NCBI GenBank assembly: GCA_021324015.1 | Contig: JAJPJX010000136.1 | Span: 62,001 to 126,000 of the forward strand | Length of the DNA stretch: 64,000 bases | Source of the DNA: Solibacteraceae bacterium | GTDB taxonomy: Bacteria > Acidobacteriota > Terriglobia > Bryobacterales > Bryobacteraceae | Direction of reading: 5' to 3' | Part shown: piece after piece, positions 58,496-64,000 of the stretch | How the letters are laid out: every line of letters begins with the position of its first letter | How positions within the stretch are numbered: the first letter of the stretch is position 1 | Notes under the pieces: model-generated | Seen by the model: the letters and a program-made list of their open reading frames with translations, nothing else | What the model was told of the DNA's origin: nothing | The model's database searches: none | Position numbers and translations under genes: made by a program

Positions 58496-58957
58496 ATGCC
58501 CAGAATCGAACACCTGCGGGAGGTTCCGCCGGCTCCACCCGTTTCCTATTACTGGCAAGCCAGGCTCGCCGCGGGCTGGATGCCGGTGGCCGTGGTGTGG
58601 GAACGCCAGGTGGAAGGAGAACCCGAGCCGTCCGGGGAGTTGGACGAGGACGTCCCGTACGGGCTCCAGGTGGCAGCGGACGGATCGCGCCTGGTCGAGC
58701 ACCCGGCCGAAAAACAGGCCCTGTTGCTGATGATGTCGCTCATCGTCGAGGACGCGCCCCTCGCCAGGGTGGCCGTCGAACTGAACGGCCAGGGTCTGCG
58801 CACCCGCCAGGGAACCCCCTGGGGCCCGGACTCTGTGTTCGACATGCTCCCGCGCCTGATCCAGGTGGGCCCGCGCGTCTTCTCCAGCGAAGAATGGGCC
58901 GCCCGGCGGCAGCAATTGCGCTACAGGATGTCCGCGAACGACTTGCGCAGTTTGTAG
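58496..58957 (+). CDS. Small protein with a serine-recombinase-like helical segment
   Basis: 153 residues with a strong ribosome site (GAAAGGAGG, five bases before ATG). The first 80 residues are a beta-rich unknown region (PVSYYWQARLAAGWMPVAVVWERQ). Residues 80-130, RVAVELNGQGLRTRQGTPWGPDSVFDMLP, resemble the recombinase (PF07508) helix-turn-helix of large serine recombinases (IARELNxxGIxTRxGxxW), followed by RVFSSEEWAARRQQL. There is no serine resolvase catalytic domain, so it is not a recombinase by itself; DNA binding is inferred. The 3' end overlaps the permease gene on the other strand by 37 bases. Confidence 0.6.
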   Translation: MPRIEHLREVPPAPPVSYYWQARLAAGWMPVAVVWERQVEGEPEPSGELDEDVPYGLQVAADGSRLVEHPAEKQALLLMMSLIVEDAPLARVAVELNGQGLRTRQGTPWGPDSVFDMLPRLIQVGPRVFSSEEWAARRQQLRYRMSANDLRSL

Positions 58958-60159
58958 AACCAGGCGTGCCCCGCTAGAAACACCACGCCGGCCACCGCCC
59001 ACAGCTTCCACAACGGCCGGAATCCCGGTGCGTGCCCCTCCAGCAAAATCGCCCTGTAGGCGTGCACCAGCACGAACATGGGATTCTTGCCCAGAATCGC
59101 CAGCGCCCAGTGCGGCAGCCTTTGCAACTCGGTCTCCGGATAGCAGATGGGAACCAGGAAGAAGCACAGCGTCAGCAGAAAGCCGATCACCTGTCCCAGG
59201 TCGCGTACAAACGCGCCCAGCGCCGCTAGAAACCAGCATAATCCGGCCGTAAACAGAATTTGCGGCGCCAGCAGCACAGGCAGCCACAGCACTGTAGCGT
59301 ACACGTGCCCGCGCAGCAGAAGAAAGCCGGCCACGTACAGCGCCAGCGCGAACAGTTCGCTCACCAGTCCCGCGATCACCAGGTTGAACGGCAGCGTCTC
59401 CACCGCGAAGACCAGCTTCTTGACGAAGTTGCGATGCTCCAGCATGACCGTAGGGGCGCGCCCCACCGCTTCCGCAAACGGCAGCCAGGCCAGGAACCCG
59501 GCGAAAAAGTAGAGTGCGAAGCCCGAGCGGCTGGGATCGTTATGATAGCGCGCCTGCAGCACCAACCCGAACACGAAGAAGTAGGTGAGCATCAGCAGCA
59601 GCGGGTTCAGAATGGTCCAGAAAGCCCCGCCCAGCGAGCCGCGGTAGCGGCCCAGGACGTCGCGCCGGACCATGGTGCGGATCAGGCTGCGGTTGCGACA
59701 GATGGTCTGGAAGGGCAAGGTAAAAGCGCGCCCGACGGAGTGCACCAGGCGCTCCCGGCGCACGGTACCGCGTGAGGCCACCCGAACCCGCCCCAACTTT
59801 GCCCTCCCGTCTTCGACCGCCAGATCGATCAACAGGAAGGGCCATCCACGCTCGTAAAACCAGCACTGCCCTTCCCGCATGGGAGAGAGAAAAACCTGAT
59901 AGCGGCCGGATTCCGCGGGTAAAGCGAAGCCCATTTCTACCGGCGCGGACTCGCCCGGCGCTACCTCCCGCGCAGGCGCCACGCGCTCGCCATCCACTAG
60001 CAGCGTGCCGCTCTCAGCATCAAAGAGATGATAGCCGAGGGCAAAGCCTTCCTCCGGACGCCACGCCGCCGGGGAGAGATTCTGGATGCGGAAAGCAGCG
60101 TGCAGCACGTTGCCTTCAAGGCCTAGCCGGACATCGGTTTCCAGGTACGCGGCGCTCAC
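58921..60159 (-). CDS. ABC-2 polysaccharide export permease with an N-terminal Wzt-like domain
   Basis: 412 residues. Residues 1-125 are a beta-sandwich: VRLGLEGNVLHAAFRIQNLS, LGYHLFDAESGTLLVDGER, APGESAPVEMGFALPAESGRYQVFLS and GWPFLLIDLAVED. This is the layout of the glycan-recognition domain normally at the C-terminus of Wzt ATPases. From about 165 the TagG/Wzm-type permease begins (ICRNRSLIRTMVRRDVLGRYRGSLGG) with six membrane helices. It should export a polysaccharide made by the adjacent glycosyltransferases. No ATPase gene is in the window; it may lie to the right. It starts 12 bases after the glycosyltransferase stop. Confidence 0.8.
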   Translation of the reverse strand: MSAAYLETDVRLGLEGNVLHAAFRIQNLSPAAWRPEEGFALGYHLFDAESGTLLVDGERVAPAREVAPGESAPVEMGFALPAESGRYQVFLSPMREGQCWFYERGWPFLLIDLAVEDGRAKLGRVRVASRGTVRRERLVHSVGRAFTLPFQTICRNRSLIRTMVRRDVLGRYRGSLGGAFWTILNPLLLMLTYFFVFGLVLQARYHNDPSRSGFALYFFAGFLAWLPFAEAVGRAPTVMLEHRNFVKKLVFAVETLPFNLVIAGLVSELFALALYVAGFLLLRGHVYATVLWLPVLLAPQILFTAGLCWFLAALGAFVRDLGQVIGFLLTLCFFLVPICYPETELQRLPHWALAILGKNPMFVLVHAYRAILLEGHAPGFRPLWKLWAVAGVVFLAGHAWFYKLRKSFADIL

Positions 60160-60171
60160 GGATTCTCGCCT

Positions 60172-62139
60172 TCAGGAATACAACCACGCAGGATACCGCT
60201 CGCGCACGCCGCCCGTCTTGCGCCCTACCGCGTAGATCCCGTCACCTCGCAGCGCCGTGGAAAGCGAGTAGCGCTCCAGTAGATGCATCACCCAGGCATA
60301 TTCCGGCCGAGGCTCGTCCCGGAAAGGACCGGTCTCGAGCAGCGCCACCTCAAAACCCGCGTTCTCCAAGAGTTGATGGATCTCCCGCGGCGTGTACTCC
60401 CGGTTGTGCCGCGCATCCACCTGGCCCTCCGCCGACGGGCGCAGATAAGCATGAAAAAACCCCGGGTGATAGCCCTGCAAGATGGCGGAGAGCCCCCGTA
60501 GCGCCACTATGTTGGGGGTGGTCAGCACCAGGTGACCGCCCCGCCTCAGGATGCGGTTCACCTCCGCCATCAGGTGCATGGGATCCTCGAACAGGTGCTC
60601 GATCAGCTCGCAGCAAAGCACCGTGGAAAAGTACTGGTCCGCATACGGAAACTGGTCCTTCTCGGCGTTAAACAGGTCCACGGCGCACTCGAATTTTTCT
60701 CCCTCGGCCGAAACCACCGCGCGGTGATCCGTCTGTCCTAGCGGTCCGTAGTAGCAGCCGCGCACCTCGCCGTACCCCAGGCGCGTCTTGAGCGCCGGAG
60801 TGATTTGCAGATACGCACCCATCTCCAGAACGCGGTCCTCCGGTCCGCCCGGCGGCGTGATCTCCAGCGTCTTTTGCAGCCGCGTAAGGTGCGTCTCGAT
60901 ATAGGTTCGCGCCTCGGGGGTGGCTGCCCAGCTTTTGAGAAATTCGGTGGGAGGAGCAGGCGGCCCGGCTGCCGGTACCGGCGCCTGGGGCTGCACGGGG
61001 GACTCGGATTCCTGCCATTCGCGCCCTTCCGCAATGCACCGCAGGAAGTCGGCATAGCGTCCGGCCACCGCGTCCCATCGGCACTCCTGCTCCACGTAGC
61101 GGCGCGCTCGCACGCCTAACTCGCGCGCAATCGTGGGCCGGGAAACGAGCAGGTTCAAATACTCGAACAGCAGGTTCTCTTCCCCGGCGTCTACCGGTAC
61201 CTTGAGGCACACGTCCTCGGGGAGCTCCCGAAACGCGCCGACGTCCGACACCAGCACCGCCTTGCCTAGGCCCAGCGCCCGCAGCAGGCTGCCAGAACTC
61301 TCCCCCACCGTGGGATAGCGCAGGTTCAGCACGATATCGCAGGCGGCGATGTATCCTTCAAAATCCTCAATCGGCGTGAAGCCCAGCACGCGCACATTGG
61401 CCCACAGCCCCAGGGAGTGGATCAACTGCTCCACCTCCAGATCCGGATGTGGCTCGCCCACCAGGATCATTTTGGCTTGCGGAACCATCCTCAGCAGGCG
61501 GCGGAAGGCGCGCAGCGATTCGGCGATCCGCTTGTACGGCTTCAGAAACCCGAAGATCCCCACGAGCGGCGTTAACTCGTCCAGCCCCAGGCGCTCGCGG
61601 TAAGCCTGCCGGTCGGTCTGCGGAATCCAGGCGCCGTGCGGCACGCGGGCCACCGGTCCGTGGAATCCCTGCACGCGCATCTCCTCCACCATGAAACGGC
61701 TGTGTACGATCAGCGCCCGCGAGCGCTCCAGCAGCCGCCGCGTCATGGGCAGCCCGTCGTAATCCGGCCCTACCTCCAGAGCGCGCACCCGGCGGGCATA
61801 CGCCAGCGCCTCCGGACCCCCGTTGTACTCGCACTCCGCCAGGTACCCCTCCCAGTCTCCCCGCCGGATGGTCAGGTCCGTCATCAGGTGATGCAGGTTG
61901 GATTCGTGCATCACCACCACGCCGGGGTGCCGCATGGCGGCCTCGTAGGTAAACACGTGGTACGGATTGTTGCCCATATGGTAGAGAGCCACGTCGAAAC
62001 GCGAAGGATCAAGCGGCCGGCTGTCGTCCGGAAAGGCTTCCACTTCCACCAGCCGCTCCAGGTGCTTCAACAGAGTTTCGGAATAATCCGCGATCCCGCT
62101 GCGCGAAGGCGGCAGCGGTGAAAAGAAAGCTACGCGCAT
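60172..62139 (-). CDS. GT4 glycosyltransferase fused to a SAM methyltransferase
   Basis: 655 residues. The N-terminal half is a GT-B glycosyltransferase (RVAFFSPLPPSRSGIADYSETL, VGIFGFLKPYKRIAESLRAFRRLL, LRYPTVGESSGSLLRALGLGKAVLVSDVG). A Pro-rich linker at about 385-400 leads to a class I methyltransferase domain (DRVLEMGAYLQITPAL, FSTVLCCELIEHLFEDPMHLMAEVNRILRRGGHLVLTTPN). It probably adds and caps or methylates sugars of the exported glycan. Its ATG directly follows the TGA of the DUF3108 gene with no spacer. Cytoplasmic. Confidence 0.88.
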   Translation of the reverse strand: MRVAFFSPLPPSRSGIADYSETLLKHLERLVEVEAFPDDSRPLDPSRFDVALYHMGNNPYHVFTYEAAMRHPGVVVMHESNLHHLMTDLTIRRGDWEGYLAECEYNGGPEALAYARRVRALEVGPDYDGLPMTRRLLERSRALIVHSRFMVEEMRVQGFHGPVARVPHGAWIPQTDRQAYRERLGLDELTPLVGIFGFLKPYKRIAESLRAFRRLLRMVPQAKMILVGEPHPDLEVEQLIHSLGLWANVRVLGFTPIEDFEGYIAACDIVLNLRYPTVGESSGSLLRALGLGKAVLVSDVGAFRELPEDVCLKVPVDAGEENLLFEYLNLLVSRPTIARELGVRARRYVEQECRWDAVAGRYADFLRCIAEGREWQESESPVQPQAPVPAAGPPAPPTEFLKSWAATPEARTYIETHLTRLQKTLEITPPGGPEDRVLEMGAYLQITPALKTRLGYGEVRGCYYGPLGQTDHRAVVSAEGEKFECAVDLFNAEKDQFPYADQYFSTVLCCELIEHLFEDPMHLMAEVNRILRRGGHLVLTTPNIVALRGLSAILQGYHPGFFHAYLRPSAEGQVDARHNREYTPREIHQLLENAGFEVALLETGPFRDEPRPEYAWVMHLLERYSLSTALRGDGIYAVGRKTGGVRERYPAWLYS

Positions 62140-62844
62140 TCAGCGAACCAGTTCCATGGAGAAGGTGCCTAGTGCAAACGGAGCCCGGATCACCAGCGGC
62201 GTTCGCGCCGGGTCGCGGGCGAAGAACATTTCGAAGCTGAAATTGGAGGCGGGCCCCTTGAAGGTCGCGATCAGCCGGTCTGCCTGCACTTTGACGTCGT
62301 TGACCGAAACCACCTGCGGTCCGGTGTATTCCAGCCGTACGTCATAGGCGGCGCCGAACATTACGGTCTGCGGAGGCGCCACTCTTCCCTGCCCCAGCTC
62401 CCGGCGCACGAAGTACAGCAAATCCAGTGCGTCTCGGGCGCAGTCAGAGATGGAAAACTCCGTCTTGCCGCCGTTCAGAGTCGTTCGGCGGCCGGTGCTC
62501 TCACGGTAATCGAAAGAGGTGGTTTCCTTCGCACGCCGGGTGCCGTGGCTTAGGTCCTTCTCGAACTCCAGGGAGCACAGGTTGCCCGTGGCGGCGGAGC
62601 GATAGTGGTCGTGCACCGAGAACCCTGGGATCGAAGCGTCTAGGTTGAACTCGAAGTCCCAACGATCCACGCCTTGATGGGCTGTCAGGTGCGCCTCGCC
62701 TAGGCCCAGCCCGCTCGGCCAGTTCACCGAATAATTCAGGCTTTCGCTGGTAAAAGGAAATCCGCTTTGGGCCGCTGCCGGAACGGCGGCCGTCAGGACC
62801 ACAACCGCGAGGCCGGCCCACAAACTGCTCCCGGTCCAGCTCAT
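62140..62844 (-). CDS. DUF3108 domain protein, exported
   Basis: 234 residues with a signal peptide (VVLTAAVPAAAQS). ESLNYSVNWPSGLGLGEAHLTA, FEKDLSHGTRRAKETTSFDY, CARDALDLLYFVRRE and VMFGAAYDVRLEYTG match DUF3108, a periplasmic beta-barrel-like family often found near glycan and envelope genes. Function is unknown. The start overlaps the stop of the downstream-numbered glycosyltransferase gene as ATGA, and its own stop abuts the GT-methyltransferase start, so all three are coupled. Confidence 0.85.
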   Translation of the reverse strand: MSWTGSSLWAGLAVVVLTAAVPAAAQSGFPFTSESLNYSVNWPSGLGLGEAHLTAHQGVDRWDFEFNLDASIPGFSVHDHYRSAATGNLCSLEFEKDLSHGTRRAKETTSFDYRESTGRRTTLNGGKTEFSISDCARDALDLLYFVRRELGQGRVAPPQTVMFGAAYDVRLEYTGPQVVSVNDVKVQADRLIATFKGPASNFSFEMFFARDPARTPLVIRAPFALGTFSMELVR

Positions 62845-63998
62845 CGCTGTGGAATCGGCGCCGGTCTGAGGGCCTTTCCCACCGCGCGGGACTCTTCAAC
62901 TACCTGGTAGTAGATCTCCAGCGTCTTCTGCGCCGTCCGACACCAACTGAAATGCGCCGAGCGCTGCAGGCCCAGCCGCTCCATCCGCGCCCGCAATTCC
63001 GTGTCGCGGATCAGGTCCAGCATGGCGCGCGTGATCTCCCCCGGCGTGTACGGATCGAACAGCAGGGCGGCGCCGTCGGCTACCTCGGGCACTGCGGAAG
63101 CACTCGAACATGCCACTGCCTTGGAGCAGGCCATGGCCTCCAGCACCGGCAGCCCGAATCCCTCATAAAACGACGGGAAGACGAACACCTCGCAGGCATT
63201 GTACAGGTGCTGCAACTGCTCGTCCGTCACGAACCCGGTGAAATGAATCCGCTCCGCAATCCCGGATTGCCGGGCCGCCTCCCGGACGCGTGGCGCGAAC
63301 CACGTCTCCTTACCCGCCAGCACCAGGTGGTGCGGCAGCTCGGGACAGGCGCGCAGCATATCGGCAAACGCCGTGATCAGACCGATCTGGTTCTTGCGTG
63401 GCTGTAAATCGCCGACCGAGAGAACAAAGGGCGTATTCACCCGGAGCGCCGCACGCACGTTGGCCGCCGCTTGCAACCGCGAGGTGGGCCGGAAGCTGCT
63501 CTCCGCGGCGTTCGGCACCGCCACCACGCGATCGGGGTTCACCTCCGGATACGCCCGCAAAATCGAATGCCGCGAGAAATCACTGCCGGTCACAATCCGG
63601 GCAGCCTGGCGCACCGTGCGCCCCACGGTCCAGCGGAGTTGCATCGCCCGCAAGGGCGTGAAGTATTCCGGATGCTCCAGGAAGCTGACGTCGTGTACGC
63701 TGACGACCACCGGCACCGGGCAGCCGACCGGTGCGGTGTACTGCACATGGATCAGATCCGGCTGGTCCTCGCGGAGCTTCATGGCCAGATCGAAGCCCAA
63801 GCGCAGGAATGGGTTAGGCGAAACCCAGCGCACGTGGAAACGGGCCGGAATCCACGCCCGGGCGGTCTCCACCGAGAGGTAGGCAAAGAACTCGGAATCC
63901 TGATCCTGAGCCGCAAACCCGCCCGCCAGGTTCCGCGCGTATACCTCGTTTCCCGTCAGATGCCGTCCGATGGCGTGAGCGTCCAGAGCGAAGCGCAT
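62841..63998 (-). CDS. GT4 family glycosyltransferase
   Basis: 385 residues, complete. The GT-B fold is shown by DAHAIGRHLTGNEVYARNL (N-terminal nucleotide region), VVVSVHDVSFLEHPEYF, FVLSVGDLQPRKNQIGLITAF and PSFYEGFGLPVLEAMACSKAVACS with the catalytic EX7E-type motif, resembling mannosyl- or N-acetylhexosaminyl-transferases. The last three bases of the window read TGA on this strand and overlap the ATG as TGATG, which would be the stop of an upstream gene outside the window. It is the first visible gene of the polysaccharide operon. Confidence 0.92.
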   Translation of the reverse strand: MRFALDAHAIGRHLTGNEVYARNLAGGFAAQDQDSEFFAYLSVETARAWIPARFHVRWVSPNPFLRLGFDLAMKLREDQPDLIHVQYTAPVGCPVPVVVSVHDVSFLEHPEYFTPLRAMQLRWTVGRTVRQAARIVTGSDFSRHSILRAYPEVNPDRVVAVPNAAESSFRPTSRLQAAANVRAALRVNTPFVLSVGDLQPRKNQIGLITAFADMLRACPELPHHLVLAGKETWFAPRVREAARQSGIAERIHFTGFVTDEQLQHLYNACEVFVFPSFYEGFGLPVLEAMACSKAVACSSASAVPEVADGAALLFDPYTPGEITRAMLDLIRDTELRARMERLGLQRSAHFSWCRTAQKTLEIYYQVVEESRAVGKALRPAPIPQR

Positions 63999-64000
63999 CA

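Follow-up and report, generated by a model that had tools for sequence, protein, structure and literature searches.

Does the additional beta-sandwich at the N-terminus of a Wzm-type permease represent the glycan-recognition domain of its partner ATPase, moved to another subunit, or a domain of a different family, and what could it do for the exporter? The question arises from the window, i.e. the whole 64,000-nt stretch of DNA analysed here, in which an initial annotation had placed such a permease and had proposed that its first 125 residues resemble the Wzt_C domain of Wzt. In the ABC polysaccharide exporters for which a check of the finished chain is described, that check lies on the ATPase, as far as the relevant passages of the papers cited here go. 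The features concerned are listed in Table 1.

Table 1. Features of the permease locus and related genes. Positions without a prefix are those of the window; G000 is the window's own genome.
Feature	Position	Strand	Evidence
Wzm-type ABC-2 permease, 412 aa, GTG start	58921..60159	-	ABC2_membrane, PDB profile match, predicted fold
N-terminal Ig-like beta-sandwich, residues 1-128, FW-like family	59776..60159	-	predicted fold, profile
Linker helix (130-155) and interface-type helix (157-172), from the N-domain to TM1	59644..59772	-	DSSP on model
ABC2_membrane transmembrane domain, residues 159-372	59044..59685	-	Pfam match
Fused GT4 glycosyltransferase and SAM methyltransferase (GT-methyltransferase), directly upstream of the permease	60172..62139	-	Glycos_transf_1 4.6e-14, Methyltransf_23 3.2e-10
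DUF3108 protein	62140..62844	-	Pfam 2.3e-18
GT4 glycosyltransferase	62841..63998	-	Pfam, same cluster
Best partner Wzt ATPase, with its own Wzt_C	G000:C198:22133-23371		PF14524 111 bits, cut-off 30.4
Second Wzm-type permease, no N-domain	G000:C178:77054-77830		34% identity
Second intact Wzt, with Wzt_C	G000:C48:61898-62311		
Wzt-like protein, 345 aa, intact Wzt_C	G000:C25:73052-74086	-	Wzt_C 112.6 bits (L001, L119:10636-11673, L200)

The permease and its gene cluster

The open frame of the permease comprises 412 codons, and a start codon is present at the aligned position in several homologues as well. The Pfam scan identified ABC2_membrane on residues 159-372 (E 1.9e-16, 60.7 bits, cut-off 26.9), and a PDB search with a profile of 52 homologues recovered the Wzm chain of A. 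aeolicus (6m96, E 9.3e-37) and TarG (E 9.2e-29). The AlphaFold2 model of the whole permease (pLDDT 89.4) was superposed on Wzm 7k2t (Z 27.3, rmsd 2.1, 247 residues aligned) and on TarG 9cfl (Z 29.1, rmsd 2.2, 266 residues aligned). The Pfam match, the PDB profile matches and the fold of the model therefore confirm the original call: by profile and predicted fold, the gene product is a Wzm-type polysaccharide exporter permease.

The permease is the last gene of a minus-strand cluster in the order rmlA, rmlC, rmlB, three GT4-type glycosyltransferases, DUF3108, GT-methyltransferase and permease. Two of the glycosyltransferases and the three rml genes are outside the window, further along the contig on the same strand. 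This set of glycan genes suggests that the permease exports a lipid-linked polysaccharide. The exported chain likely contains a deoxyhexose such as rhamnose, because the cluster has glycosyltransferases together with rmlA, rmlC and rmlB in the window's own genome, and the GT-methyltransferase is a candidate for the chain-terminating enzyme. Among 80 related loci, 75 have the GT-methyltransferase gene; four of the five exceptions have no upstream sequence and the fifth is L074. Where at least 9 kb of upstream sequence is available (36 loci), the cluster genes GT_A (34 loci), GT_C (34), DUF3108 (32) and GT_B (30) are generally present, and rmlA (19), rmlC (17) and rmlB (13) were found in about half of the loci or fewer. 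Meanwhile, L074 is the only one of these 36 loci without the GT-methyltransferase; with the cut-off applied, the 21 kb of this locus contain none of the genes that normally accompany the permease (L074:9833-11200).

The N-terminal domain belongs to an FW-like family

The presence of an N-terminal sandwich on the permease, also part of the initial annotation, was borne out by the model: residues 1-128 form a separate beta-sandwich of eight strands, which reached a pLDDT of 96.3 when folded alone by AlphaFold2. N_BRCA1_IG (FW, PF16158) comes closest among the Pfam families; it was found below the cut-off in 32 of 52 homologous N-domains with a best E of 1.9e-4. Against the present protein, PF16158 scored 18.5 bits for the N-domain alone and 15.2 bits for the full sequence, and thus did not reach its cut-off of 28. 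No match was obtained in PHROGs or NCBIfam, apart from scattered single NCBIfam matches among the 52 members.

The top VIA-align rows for the N-domain are Ig-like domains of GH2 enzymes, ASF1 and FW, and the best 50 rows all fall between Z 8.7 and 9.9; therefore no single relative is picked out by fold. For example, the FW domain 6vhi (Z 9.3, rmsd 2.9, 98 residues aligned, 24% identity) is level with the GH2 and ASF1 rows. Wzt_C is not among the best 50 rows, an absence that excludes nothing. Foldseek returned Ig-like and other beta-sandwich domains at E values of 2e-4 to 3e-3, including a GH3 enzyme, the FW domain of ILRUN, ApaG and the carbohydrate-binding domains (CBD) of Wzt (8dky, 5.9e-4; 5hno, 9.4e-4). 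These matches are generic Ig-like domains and therefore carry no information on the ligand.

Conservation is lower in the N-domain than across the membrane part (mean top-residue frequency 0.56 versus 0.75). W100 is invariant and W33, Y87 and Y102 are near-invariant in the alignment, wherein W33 and W100 are the only tryptophan positions conserved in at least 90% of the 52 homologues. The FW domain, according to the passages of PMC9233695 concerned with it, is named for four tryptophans. Although FW (6vhi, 4ole) gives the best Pfam resemblance and the 6vhi match points to a similar Ig-like fold, the N-domain remains below the family cut-off, has two conserved tryptophans instead of four and resides on another host protein. 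The N-domain is a member of an FW-like family, which is apparently without a name and is defined here by alignment A2, and not a member of Wzt_C.

Relation to Wzt_C

A profile search of the whole genome with PF14524 (Wzt_C) did not match the permease, and three other proteins of the same genome, serving as the positive control, were found at 94-115 bits. Nor did PF14524 appear in the Pfam scan of the permease or among the families reported for the 52 homologous N-domains. The N-domain lies N-terminal to ABC2_membrane, not C-terminal to an ABC ATPase domain as Wzt_C does. Wzt_C is likewise a beta-sandwich in a polysaccharide ABC exporter, and the resemblance of the first 125 residues to it is a likeness at the level of the Ig-like fold, where the Foldseek match to 8dky is level with those to FW, ApaG and GH domains, but not one of sequence. 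In other words, the two domains are unrelated at the family level only, and their overall Ig-like fold is similar.

Profiles were also compared directly, using a Wzt_C alignment of 34 rows from the present study and a broad profile of the N-domain family that combines the 52 N-domains with 40 copies from other proteins. The hhalign score of the broad profile was 23.2, from a collinear alignment of 101 columns with a single-comparison E of 0.004 and a probability of 8%. The highest control scores were 16.8 among 60 column shuffles and 15.2 among eight unrelated families. The profile of the N-domain alone scored 21.0, with maxima of 19.0 for the shuffles and 17.2 for the same eight families. Since there is no Ig-like domain among these controls, the score fits a shared layout as well as a very old kinship. 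The link between the N-domain and Wzt_C is a generic Ig-like fold plus a weak profile signal, and not family membership.

The partner ATPase

A location of the ATPase gene just beyond base 64000 was rejected: the cluster continues there with glycosyltransferases, rmlB, rmlC and rmlA, followed by a DNA polymerase I gene (named by eye), and includes no ATPase. No Wzt-like ATPase was found on the window's contig, C64, where two general ABC matches (E 1.7e-16 and 4.9e-9) are the only ones. Downstream of the permease, at least 1.5 kb of sequence is available in 66 of the 80 loci, and a Wzt-type ATPase directly behind the permease was found in two of them, L109 and L093, both with PF14524 (123 and 115 bits, respectively). 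Behind the adjacent ATPase lies an M24 peptidase gene in both loci, together with a sodium:solute symporter gene in L093. A symporter or M24 gene also flanks the separate ATPase of the C198 type in 14 of its 30 family loci, surveyed with about 1.5 kb of flank (five with the symporter, including the own genome, and nine with M24). The permease tree gives no indication whether the adjacent ATPase is ancestral. Weaker ABC ATPase matches in seven loci (L060, L069, L083, L088, L094, L103 and L114; E 2e-18 to 1e-6) were rejected as partners; none adjoins the permease and they were taken as general ABC proteins.

Co-occurrence was then counted in 121 family genomes, with the permease called present at a best E of 1e-80 or lower and the C198-type ATPase at 1e-120 or lower; both cut-offs were set at gaps in the E-value lists after the lists had been viewed. 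Both genes are present in 87 genomes, the permease only in 12, the ATPase only in three, and 19 genomes have neither (Fisher p 2e-11). When each genus is represented by a single genome (n=76), the corresponding counts are 55, 7, 3 and 11 (p 1.5e-6). Among the 12 genomes without the ATPase, G035 has a truncated match of 79% identity and G055 and G103 have full-length matches of 51%; the nine others are unexplained.

The own genome has a second Wzm-type permease, on C178, and a second intact Wzt, on C48. No Wzt-like ATPase was found within the 20 kb fetched around the former, and no permease within the 19 kb fetched around the latter. With neither having a partner nearby, gene order in the own genome is compatible with crossed pairing too, of the window's permease with the C48 ATPase or of the C198 ATPase with the C178 permease. 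The C198-type Wzt is favoured because of the co-occurrence and the gene order in L093 and L109, and it is likely the partner of the permease. The C198 ATPase keeps its own Wzt_C, which is one of the two findings that the initial annotation named as refuting it, provided that a C198-type ATPase is the partner.

Distribution and loss of the N-domain

Among the 99 family genomes with the permease, 95 have a permease match that at least partly covers the N-domain, so the reading frame of the N-domain is not a chance frame. The permeases of G012, G111, G070 and G109, four genomes of three genera, have no recognisable N-domain on inspection and still follow the GT-methyltransferase gene; for G012 and G111, ABC2_membrane is the only Pfam family. 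The N-domain of the G096 permease is much shortened, and G073, of the same genus as G111, retains a full one. On the permease tree, G111, G012 and the pair G070/G109 (one genus) occupy three places; the bootstrap is not settled, and the label count of N-domain loss gives one change, as unlabelled rows were ignored. The absence of the N-domain in four genomes indicates that it is not essential for export.

The ATPases fetched from G012, G111 and G070 each carry ABC_tran and Wzt_C (Wzt_C 103-115 bits), and the best ATPase match of G109 is weak (8.6e-42). Wzt_C is thus retained whether or not the permease has an N-domain, contrary to what would be expected of a domain passed from ATPase to permease. 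A transfer of this kind, with a partner ATPase devoid of Wzt_C, appears very improbable to us. It would account for the similar Ig-like fold and for a profile score above controls that contain no Ig-like domain; however, the hhalign probability is low, PF14524 is not listed for any of the N-domains, the likely partner on C198 and the permease-adjacent ATPases of L093 and L109 all retain Wzt_C, and in the three genomes whose ATPase was fetched, the permeases without an N-domain occur together with Wzt_C ATPases.

Beyond the permease, the A2 profile gave significant matches (E 0.001 or lower) in 78 of the 297 phylum genomes; two of these genomes belong to the window's own family, and the best match outside it is 2e-16. 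By eye, the copies in other proteins have an N near strand 2 and a conserved Trp, and most have a C-terminal E-x-x-W-(F/Y). Of 10 proteins picked from 32 with such copies, four had SAM methyltransferase domains, two had Wzy_C (O-antigen ligase) and four showed no other family. Single or tandem copies occur across Acidobacteriota (L154-L182) on methyltransferases, Wzy_C proteins and unassigned proteins, for example with three copies in L158 and L175 and two in L154, L155, L159, L162 and L167. The permease is the only strong copy in the own genome, where the next match has an E of 0.01.

Searching the phylum sample with the whole-permease profile, the N-domain was reached without internal stops only in G000 and G024 among the matches listed, and for G088, the third genome of the window's family in the sample, no such match was listed. 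Because the matches of this kind among those listed come from the window's family only, the fusion of permease and N-domain looks like a speciality of Bryobacteraceae, a family name taken from the names on the best contig matches, where a few records are named otherwise.

Comparison with known exporters

The Wzm of A. aeolicus (6m96, 7k2t, 8dku) has the same ABC-2 fold over residues 156-412 of the present permease. In the passages of PMC9445017 on the A. aeolicus WzmWzt, an N-terminal interface helix before TM1 and a partner Wzt with a CBD are described as well. The A. aeolicus chain (256 residues) begins at residue 155 of the present permease, and therefore no domain precedes the interface helix there. 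In contrast, the present permease adds an Ig-like domain of 128 residues, and its likely ATPase gene is on another contig. Similarly, the fold match to the wall teichoic acid exporter TarG (9cfl, 6jbh) starts at residue 143 and includes part of the linker helix; the matched chain of 270 residues has no N-terminal beta-sandwich. Unlike Wzt_C, the N-domain sits at the permease N-terminus and is unmatched by PF14524, and the likely ATPase still has Wzt_C. The permease with its N-domain is a real and conserved variant of the Wzm architecture rather than a case of Wzt_C relocation. A literature search by titles and abstract openings returned no such permease; the survey by Mann, Kimber and Whitfield (Glycobiology 2019) could mention one. 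The variant is of interest to specialists in polysaccharide export.

A putative ATPase-dead Wzt paralogue

The own genome encodes a further Wzt-like protein, on C25, whose Wzt_C is intact. In an alignment of 12 copies of this type, inspected by eye, all 12 lack the helical subdomain and the ABC signature and have another residue in place of the catalytic Glu that follows Walker B; nine of them also have the Ser/Thr of Walker A replaced. Relatives are present in 38 of 61 family genomes (E at most 1e-65, identity at least 47%), and in five of the 38 (G012, G014, G023, G041 and G055) the match misses the start of the protein. They were found in 36 of 49 genomes with the permease versus two of 12 without it (p 5e-4). 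A divergent methyltransferase gene resembling the one in the own genome (SAM family by Pfam) lies beside the C25-type gene in nine of 12 fetched loci.

Its conservation makes the C25 paralogue a candidate for an ATPase-dead subunit with a recognition role in this exporter. It is conceivable, though doubtful, that the cargo is checked by three beta-sandwich modules, namely the FW-like domain that the permease carries at the channel entrance and two Wzt_C domains, one of the active ATPase and one of the C25 paralogue. The methyltransferase often found beside the dead paralogue could then make the cap. If this were true, recognition and energy supply would be divided among subunits rather than combined on one Wzt, and the ATPase-dead paralogue makes their separation directly testable.

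Possible role of the N-domain

With moderate confidence, we propose that the permease carries a cytosolic FW-like docking module in addition to the Wzt_C of the C198 ATPase. The product of 58921-60159 would be the permease of an ABC-transporter-dependent surface-glycan exporter and the Wzt on C198 its ATPase, whose own Wzt_C would perform the usual check of the chain end, by analogy with Klebsiella systems; those in which Wzt bears the module export terminated chains exclusively, according to the passages of PMC11231755 that deal with them. The N-domain, connected through a single helix to the interface helix that precedes TM1, would thereby be placed at the entrance, on the cytosolic side if the Wzm topology applies. 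At the channel's lateral entrance it would hold either the chain end or the GT-methyltransferase encoded just upstream of the permease.

The beta-sandwich could thus take part in recognition in two ways. In the passages of PMC9233695 on Nbr1, the FW domain binds a protein, namely a protein N-terminus; docking of an enzyme is therefore no less likely than binding of a sugar. We tentatively regard it as possible that the N-domain is purely a protein docking site, which would tether the GT-methyltransferase or a Wzt-like subunit without sugar contact. The GT-methyltransferase gene in 75 of the 80 related loci is in line with such a site, as is the protein recognised by the Nbr1 domain; however, in G111 and G012 the permease still adjoins the GT-methyltransferase gene but has no N-domain. 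Slightly less probable is that the N-domain itself binds the glycan end, providing a second carbohydrate site beside Wzt_C and a double check before export. The overall fold like that of the Wzt CBD, the invariant W100 with the near-invariant W33, Y87 and Y102, and the occurrence of the family on methyltransferases and ligase-type proteins would agree with glycan binding, but the conserved aromatics may be structural and the Nbr1 FW domain binds a protein N-terminus.

An appendage serving structure or stability, with no role in recognition, seems improbable. Its absence in four genomes of three genera and its moderate conservation might be read in this way; against it, the N-domain is kept at least partly in 95 of the 99 family genomes with the permease, and its pattern of conserved residues is common to other proteins. 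If the N-domain were structural only, the finding would be a modest architectural variant. Returning to the docking module that we favour, an Ig-like module at the permease entrance, together with orthologues that have lost it, offers a ready comparison of what the module contributes.

A minor feature of the locus is a small plus-strand frame (58496-58957), which is convergent with the permease gene and overlaps its 3' end by 37 bases. Its match to Recombinase (PF07508) is barely above the cut-off (23.9 versus 21.1 bits), and the frame is perhaps a resolvase remnant.
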